Part shown: positions 11,107 to 14,361 of the stretch, piece by piece
How the letters are laid out: every line of letters starts with the position of its first letter
How positions within the stretch are numbered: the first letter of the stretch is position 1
Assembly (NCBI GenBank): GCA_003161615.1
Contig: PMOB01000006.1
Span: forward strand, 1-64,000
Direction of reading: 5' to 3'
From: Actinomycetota bacterium
GTDB taxonomy: Bacteria; Actinomycetota; Thermoleophilia; Gaiellales; Gaiellaceae
Length of the DNA stretch: 64,000 nt
The notes under the pieces: model-generated
Seen by the model: the letters and a program-made list of their open reading frames with translations, nothing else
The model's database searches: none
What the model was told of the DNA's origin: nothing
Made by a program: the position numbers and the translations under genes

Positions 11107-11415
11107 ATGGCAACGAACGTCACCGACGCCACCTTCGAGAGCGAGGTCCTCCAGGCGGCCGAGCCCGTGCTCGTCGACTTCTGGGCCGAATGGTGCGGGC
11201 CGTGCCACGCGGTCGAGCCCGTTCTCGAGCGGATCGCCGAGGAGCGGAACATCAAGCTCGTGAAGGTGAACATCGACGAGAACCAGGAGCTCGCGATCCG
11301 CTACGGGATCCAGTCGATCCCGAACACGATGCTCTTCGAGGCGGGCGCGCCGAAGGCTGCGGCTGTGGGCGCGATGCCGAAGGGCATGCTCGAGAGCCAG
11401 CTCGGTCTCTCGTAG
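11107..11415 (+). CDS. trxA: thioredoxin
   Basis: VLVDFWAEWCGPCHAVEPVLE; SIPNTMLF cis-Pro. Confidence 0.94.
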   Translation: MATNVTDATFESEVLQAAEPVLVDFWAEWCGPCHAVEPVLERIAEERNIKLVKVNIDENQELAIRYGIQSIPNTMLFEAGAPKAAAVGAMPKGMLESQLGLS

Positions 11416-12671: not shown

Positions 12672-13889
12672 ATGACGGATTCGCTGATCCCTCCGTCGAT
12701 CACGGGTACGGGCTTGAGCTTCCCGCCGGGCGGCAGCGTGCTCGACCACGCCTTCGGCCAGAGCGACCCGTACACGCTCGGGGTCGAGGAGGAGTACATG
12801 CTCCTCGACGCCAAGACGTTCGACCTCGTCCAGCACATCGACACGGTGCTCGCAGCCGTCGCCGGTCATGAGCTCGAGCCGCGGATCGACTCCGAGCTCA
12901 TGCAGTCGGTGCTCGAGGTGGCGACGCCGGTCTGCCACACGCCGGCGGAAGTCCGGCAGCAGCTACTCCGCATCCGCAGCTACGTCTGCGACGTCGCGCG
13001 GGAGAAGGGCCTGCGCGTCGGCTCGGCAGGCACGCATCCGTTCTCGCTCTTCGAGCGCCAGCGGATCACGGCGAAGGACCGCTACCGGGCGCTCGTCGAC
13101 CAGATGCAGTACATCGCGCGTCGCGAGCTGATCTTCGGGATGCACGTGCACGTCGCGGTCGACGACGCGGAGAAGGCGATCCAGGTCGTGAACGCGCTGA
13201 TTGCGCACCTGCCCGAGCTCGTCGCGCTGTCCGCGAGCTCCCCGTTTTGGCGCGGCGAGCCGACCGGCCTCCGCTCCTCTCGGCACATGGTCTTCGCCGC
13301 CTTCCCGCGCTCGGGCCCGCCGCCGCGCTTCCGCGACTACTCCGACTACGCGCAGGTCGTGAACCAGCTGGAGAAGACCGGCTGCATCCAGGACTACACG
13401 CACATCTGGTGGGACATCCGTCTCCATCCGCGCCTCGGCACCATCGAGATCCGGATCTGCGACGCGGTGACGCAGCTCGACGACGTGATCGCGATCACCG
13501 CGTACTGCCAGGCGCTCGTCAAGCACTACGCGGAGCTCGTCGACCGCGGCGAGGAGACCCCGTCCTTCCACCGGATCCTGACGACCGAGAACAAGTGGCT
13601 CGCCGCGCGCTACGGGCTCAGCGCGCCCGTGATGGACCTCCACACCGGCCGGCGCAACCGTATTCCGGTCGCCGCGCTTGTGCGGCGGACGCTCGAGACG
13701 ATCGAGCCGCACGCGCGCGACCTCGGCTCCGAGGAGGAGCTCGCGGGCCTCCAGGAAATCCTCAGCCGCGGCAACGGCGCCGACCGTCAGCTCCAGGTCT
13801 TCAACGCCAACAAGGACATCGTCGAGGTCGCCCGCGAGATCGCGGAGGCGACCGAGGTGGCGGCGGAGCCCGAACCCGCGGCCGCGTAG
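12672..13889 (+). CDS. carboxylate-amine ligase, glutamate-cysteine ligase type 2 (YbdK-like)
   Basis: YTLGVEEEYMLLD, FGMHVHVAV, HIWWDIRLHPRLGTIEIRICD. Confidence 0.9.
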   Translation: MTDSLIPPSITGTGLSFPPGGSVLDHAFGQSDPYTLGVEEEYMLLDAKTFDLVQHIDTVLAAVAGHELEPRIDSELMQSVLEVATPVCHTPAEVRQQLLRIRSYVCDVAREKGLRVGSAGTHPFSLFERQRITAKDRYRALVDQMQYIARRELIFGMHVHVAVDDAEKAIQVVNALIAHLPELVALSASSPFWRGEPTGLRSSRHMVFAAFPRSGPPPRFRDYSDYAQVVNQLEKTGCIQDYTHIWWDIRLHPRLGTIEIRICDAVTQLDDVIAITAYCQALVKHYAELVDRGEETPSFHRILTTENKWLAARYGLSAPVMDLHTGRRNRIPVAALVRRTLETIEPHARDLGSEEELAGLQEILSRGNGADRQLQVFNANKDIVEVAREIAEATEVAAEPEPAAA

Positions 13890-13899
13890 ACTCGACGCC

Positions 13900-14361
13900 G
13901 TGCTCGAGGTTGGGGAAAAGGCGCCGCTCGAAGCCGGCGTGTGGACGACGCCGCGTGAGCGCGCGACGATCGGCGACTTATTGCACGAACGCCCGCTCCT
14001 GCTTCTCTTCTATCTCTTCGACTGGTCGACGACCTGAACAAGTGAGCTCGAGCTCCTGCGTGACAGGAGAGAGGAGCTCCAGGCGGCCGGCGTCGAGCCG
14101 TACGCGATCTCGCGCGACTCGCCGTACACGCACGTCGCGTGGATGCAGGCGCTCGACCTCGACTTCCCGCTCCTCTCCGACTGGAACGCCGACGCGACGC
14201 ACGGCTTCGGCGTCGAGTACGAGCACAACGGGATGAGGGACGTCTCGCGCCGGAGCGCCTTCCTCCTCGACCGCGACGGCGTCGTGCGCGGCGCGTGGGC
14301 GTACGCGAACGACGAGCTGCCCGACCTCGACGAGCTGATCGCCGCGGCGAAGCTCTTGTAG
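13900..14361 (+). CDS. peroxiredoxin-like redoxin, candidate selenoprotein with in-frame TGA (Sec) at codon 46
   Basis: GTG at 13900, one frame to 14361 interrupted only by TGA 14035-14037: VLEVGEKAPLEAGVWTTPRERATIGDLLHERPLLLLFYLFDWSTT[U]TSELELLRDRREELQAAGVEPYAISRDSPYTHVAWMQALDLDFPLLSDWNADATHGFGVEYEHNGMRDVSRRSAFLLDRDGVVRGAWAYANDELPDLDELIAAAKLL; TGA occupies peroxidatic Cys of AhpE/BCP-type Prx. Confidence 0.82.
14044..14079 (+). promoter_or_regulatory. Candidate bacterial SECIS element
   Basis: GAGCTC-gag-CTCCTG-CGTGA-CAGGAG-agag-GAGCTC: two 6-bp stems, 5-nt apical loop with G at position 2, 21 nt between TGA and apical loop. Confidence 0.7.

Follow-up and report, generated by a model that had tools for sequence, protein, structure and literature searches.

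Positions 13900–14361 on the plus strand of the window (the whole stretch of 64,000 nt analysed here, which is the start of contig C8 in a 2.3-Mb assembly) translate as a single reading frame from a GTG start to a TAG stop. The sole interruption is a TGA at positions 14035–14037. Read through this codon, the frame encodes 153 residues with a predicted selenocysteine (Sec) at position 46, and cysteine is absent from the whole sequence. The GTG at 13900 lines up with ATG or GTG starts of relatives. The standard ORF list cuts the gene in two, a piece that ends at 14037 and a piece at 14143–14361. The translation thus agrees with a first-pass annotation of the locus, which had described one peroxiredoxin-like frame with this one TGA, no cysteine elsewhere, and two ORF fragments that make the gene easy to miss.

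The gene lies 10 nt downstream of an open reading frame on the same strand (positions 12672–13889) for a YbdK/GCS2-family glutamate-cysteine (carboxylate-amine) ligase (PF04107, 210.6 bits; PRK13515, PRK13517 and TIGR02050 over the NCBIfam cut-off). In a survey of loci up to L058, the two genes are adjacent in 7/7 testable congeners and in at least four other loci and are not adjacent elsewhere; the arrangement is a property of the genus and not of the family. The ligase is a probable operon partner in the genus of the window. A thioredoxin gene (WCGPC motif, TIGR01068 over the cut-off) is found 2.5 kb upstream at positions 11107–11415, also on the plus strand.

The read-through protein, with the TGA taken as one residue, matches the AhpC-TSA family (PF00578) with 79.8 bits (gathering cut-off 26), and the match spans the TGA. 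The nearest solved relative by sequence is a BCP/PrxQ protein of Aeropyrum pernix (2cx3, E-value = 2.7e-16). An AlphaFold2 model made from an alignment of 44 relatives has a mean pLDDT of 96.2 and resembles Sulfolobus Bcp4 (3hjp, TM-score 0.92) and Mycobacterium tuberculosis AhpE (TM-score 0.88). Residue 46 is at the N-terminus of the helix formed by residues 44–55 of the model. It aligns with the peroxidatic Cys of Cys-peroxiredoxins, and its codon aligns with the TGC or TGT of six orthologues.

The T/SxxU active-site core is present as Ser43-Thr-Thr-Sec46 (family motif WSSTU). The Pro of the motif PxxxTxxU/C is usual in PF00578 but does not define the family; here Leu39 is found in its place, seven residues before residue 46 (YLFDWSTTU). 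Leu occupies this position in 95% of the orthologues with TGA, and Pro is found in two orthologues with Cys (L067 and L068). The placement of the TGA at the peroxidatic column, proposed from the sequence at the outset, is thus borne out by the alignments to orthologues and Cys-peroxiredoxins, although the canonical Pro is replaced by Leu. Arg118, the conserved active-site Arg, is invariant across the 44 sequences. No Cys at all is present in 52/65 of the TGA orthologues, and in the remaining ones Cys is at no conserved place that would mark a resolving residue.

A SECIS-type hairpin begins 15 nt after the TGA. The apical stem-loop at positions 14053–14069 of the plus strand has a 6-bp stem and a 5-nt loop (CUCCUG-CGUGA-CAGGAG); the loop is 21 nt past the UGA and has G and U at its positions 2–3. 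An optional lower helix (14044–14049 paired with 14074–14079) extends the element to positions 14044–14079 (MFE –19.9 kcal/mol, z –2.8); this helix varies among relatives and is not conserved across the family. The bSECIS model has an apical loop of 3–9 nt with G in the first two positions, an upper stem of 4–16 bp, a distance of 16–37 nt from the UGA and an MFE of –7.5 or lower (PMC13188914). The hairpin in the window lies within these limits (5-nt loop, 6 bp, 21 nt, and –8.7 kcal/mol for positions 14050–14072). The bare 17-mer gives –7.4 kcal/mol, and strict scoring by bare-hairpin energy with a cut-off of –7.5 failed 25 of 67 TGA genes, the window gene (–7.4) included, mostly on energy. One version of this model accepts 14% of all TGAs in the window, so the generic SECIS criteria alone are weak evidence. 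An Rfam scan of the locus gave no match to a SECIS family, just sub-threshold chance matches. When the same genome was searched for further copies of the hairpin sequence, the only exact match was that in the peroxiredoxin gene, and mismatched matches were at the level of the reversed control.

Comparison of the relatives is more informative. A hairpin of at least 5 bp is present in 66/67 TGA genes (the exception, L096, has merely 3 contiguous pairs), whereas 6/6 Cys genes show 0–1 bp. The loop has G followed by U in 64/67 TGA genes and G followed by G in three, both of which the bSECIS model allows. TGA and Cys genes alike encode the amino acid motif LLRDR here without variation. Its coding in the TGA genes is almost always CTC CTG CGT GAC AGG: CGT encodes Arg54 in 62/65 and AGG encodes Arg56 in 64/65, and each codon accounts for 4.5% at other Arg codons. 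In the Cys genes, Arg54 is CGC or CGG, and Arg56 is CGC or CGG plus one AGG. Unlike the frozen Arg54 and Arg56, the invariant Arg118 is written with at least four codons; this contrast is the safer measure of codon freezing, binomial values treating the sequences as independent. In synonymous resampling the core 15-mer appeared in 2 of 5000 draws, and pair 7 changes on both sides (G-C in 37, C-G in 5).

In 101 genomes of the GTDB family of the window, an orthologue with TGA at the codon for residue 46 is found in 67, with exactly one TGA per frame, and an orthologue with TGC or TGT in six (G024, G032, G046, G057, G063 and G069). In Thermoleophilia assemblies from the public genome collection, too, this codon is TGA. 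The TGA orthologues reach down to about 46% protein identity with no other stops, and the frame downstream is conserved, its divergence being concentrated at third codon positions. The terminators of the TGA-form genes are 53 TAG, 11 TGA and 4 TAA; this avoidance of TGA is modest, given that gene-like ORFs of the window likewise end most often in TAG (16/31). A scan of 398 genomes of the phylum shows matches at E ≤ 1e-30 confined to the family. More distant TGA-bearing peroxiredoxins exist in other families of the phylum; four of these (L164, L169, L173 and L175) have the TGA at the same position in a YVFDxGxxU[ST]xEL-like motif or in YVFDFSPTUSNEL. Also seen was a second and separate Sec-peroxiredoxin paralogue (L104:195- in G004, L105:195-692 in G034 and L108:186-683 in G019). 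It has the motif FTGSxEGGUQ, and a Cys form of it (GQGC) occurs in a genome that gave no matches to selA, selB or selD.

The Cys forms of the window gene fall at three separate places inside the TGA clade, in a tree made by a quick method with the Sec position masked and rooted on Cys outgroups. A change from Sec to Cys that occurred three times is the simplest reading, parsimony counts giving no direction. Three of the Cys orthologues, from one genus (L063, L064 and L065), have an additional Cys (ISCDSP) at the place of Arg72 in the TGA orthologues. This is possibly a resolving Cys that was gained with the Sec-to-Cys change.

The genome of the window has the complete Sec machinery. The first-pass annotation had named selA, selB, selD and tRNA-Sec as the genes to look for, and all four are present: selA (500 bits), selB (349) and selD (323) are above the NCBIfam cut-offs, and the tRNA-Sec has the anticodon UCA (Rfam 60.4 bits, above the cut-off) and is found by ARAGORN as well. 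selA, selB and the tRNA-Sec are also on C8, at about 103–109 kb, and selD is on contig C24. SelD is of the Cys type (GGCAAK) here and in 31/31 genomes read (L018, L178–L207); thus SelD itself is no selenoprotein in the family sample.

Among the 101 family genomes, the TGA form is present in 65/86 with SelD and in 2/15 without (Fisher P = 7e-6, uncorrected for relatedness); among near-complete genomes the values are 21/29 and 0/6. selA or selB is found in 53/67 genomes with the TGA form and in 17/34 others (P = 0.0055, also uncorrected for relatedness). Both genes are absent from 14/67 TGA genomes, and missing contigs are the likely cause, because the completeness of these assemblies is 58%–91% and selD is present in 13 of the 14.

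The genome of the window also encodes a formate dehydrogenase alpha subunit (FdhA; L176, G000:C17:62781-64637, minus strand) with one in-frame TGA, which is at the classical Sec site (VDSCNRTUHAPS); a hairpin whose loop is GGTCT comes after it. A second, larger FDH-like molybdopterin frame of about 1090 aa, also with one TGA, was seen in other genomes (G014:C93, G038:C106, G065:C48 and others). The idea that the peroxiredoxin is the sole selenoprotein is weakened both by the FdhA of the window genome and by this larger frame, which is present in many relatives initially taken to have no FdhA. Sec-FdhA was not detected in three near-complete genomes with the Sec-peroxiredoxin (G001, G005 and G027).

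The UGA at the peroxidatic position, the SECIS-type hairpin after it and the complete Sec machinery of the genome together indicate that the gene very probably encodes a 1-Sec peroxiredoxin in which the TGA is read as Sec at the active site, a conclusion drawn from sequence comparison. This is in line with the original proposal of a genuine selenoprotein gene, which now has behind it the Sec machinery, the conservation of the TGA, and the conservation at the RNA level of the hairpin in TGA genes only. It could be argued from the splitting of the gene by a standard ORF caller that the gene is a decaying pseudogene and its TGA a genuine nonsense mutation. The first-pass annotation had looked to random decay of the downstream frame in close relatives as a sign of this, and the frame is conserved instead; the same TGA recurs in 67 genomes, to about 46% identity, with no other stops, and a pseudogene is thus extremely improbable. 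An error in sequencing or assembly of a TGC or TGT codon is to be considered as the window is known from a single assembly. Close relatives, in which TGC or TGT had been proposed as the mark of such an error, keep TGA; four independent assemblies (L021, L022, L023 and L025) carry it too. Moreover, the true Cys orthologues have no hairpin; codon and hairpin therefore change together, and an error at this codon is scarcely credible. The sequences of the relatives thus exclude both sequencing error and pseudogene decay.

Two other explanations accept the open frame and are very unlikely, if slightly less so. The UGA may be read as another amino acid, by genome-wide recoding (e.g. UGA = Trp) or by nonspecific readthrough, and as a general caution an open frame under a given code does not prove the identity of the residue. 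UGA is however a normal terminator here (12/31 gene-like ORFs of the window), the orthologues have Cys and not Trp at this position, and the hairpin and the Sec machinery are present. The hairpin, for its part, could be a by-product of codon bias or of protein constraint and not a SECIS element, as the invariance of LLRDR and the 14% of window TGAs accepted by one version of the SECIS model might suggest. The codons used are nevertheless rare ones (CGT and AGG) and the Cys orthologues encode LLRDR with others; the rarity of the core 15-mer among synonymous draws and the covariation of pair 7 also speak against a by-product.

If the gene encodes a 1-Sec peroxiredoxin, SelB with Sec-tRNA(Sec) would bind the hairpin and insert Sec at the UGA, as in established SelB-dependent decoding. 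With its selenol activated by Ser43 and by Arg118, which is invariant (a role suggested for the Arg by peroxiredoxin structures), Sec46 would reduce H2O2 or organic hydroperoxides and be converted to a selenenic acid, as is known of peroxiredoxins. Because the protein has no resolving Cys, the selenenic acid would need an external thiol for its reduction. Candidates, which are guesses, are the thioredoxin encoded upstream and a low-molecular-weight thiol connected with the YbdK/GCS2 ligase encoded next to the gene.

The AhpE subfamily has a 1-Cys mechanism with reduction by mycothiol/mycoredoxin. M. tuberculosis AhpE (Rv2238c) is like the window protein in length, in fold and in having no resolving Cys; it differs in having Cys instead of Sec, and the identity is about 28%–30%. 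The BCP/PrxQ proteins give the best sequence match and a high fold match, but have Cys for Sec and a second Cys that the window protein does not have, and the BCP equivalog score is 43.6 (cut-off 140). The score with the PrxU equivalog (NF040737) is 43.5 bits (cut-off 270); no NCBIfam equivalog fits this peroxiredoxin group. Known Sec-peroxiredoxins (T/SxxU; PrxU of Eubacterium acidaminophilum; PMC1794560, PMC5029168) share with the window gene the UGA at the peroxidatic position, the AhpC/TSA fold and a SECIS element, and a dependence on SelA, SelB and SelD is presumably common to both. Unlike them, the window protein has no resolving Cys and has Leu for the motif Pro, and its host is an uncultured member of the Thermoleophilia.

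The Sec-peroxiredoxin family comprised 12 proteins in 2006 (PMC1794560) and 91 proteins from 78 organisms in 2016 (PMC5029168), and it is listed as a selenoprotein family in 2026 (PMC13188914). Since the family is already known, the gene represents a clade-wide new member and not a new kind of selenoprotein. Searches of the open-access literature gave no paper on the subject that links selenocysteine to Thermoleophilia, or selenocysteine and peroxiredoxin to Gaiella; a groundwater MAG survey mentioned in PMC13188914 might include such genes.

In the 2006 survey (Table 1), peroxiredoxins are listed with Cys-to-Sec conversions only (PMC1794560). The nested Cys forms described here suggest that conversion from Sec to Cys, the reverse direction, occurs too. 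These forms constitute a natural experiment, at three places in the tree, each without the hairpin and with the protein motif retained. Selenoproteins are rarely kept by aerobic bacteria according to a review (PMC13188914), yet the genome of the window carries haem-copper oxidase genes. That the Sec-peroxiredoxin is a core antioxidant of these soil actinobacteria, and that it, more than formate dehydrogenase or a Sec-type SelD, is one main reason for the persistence of the Sec trait, is a doubtful proposition at present; it draws on the Cys-type SelD of the 31 genomes read and on the three near-complete genomes in which no Sec-FdhA was detected. Standard ORF calling cuts the gene into fragments, so that in the genomes of this family a soil selenoprotein that is widespread may go unrecognised.
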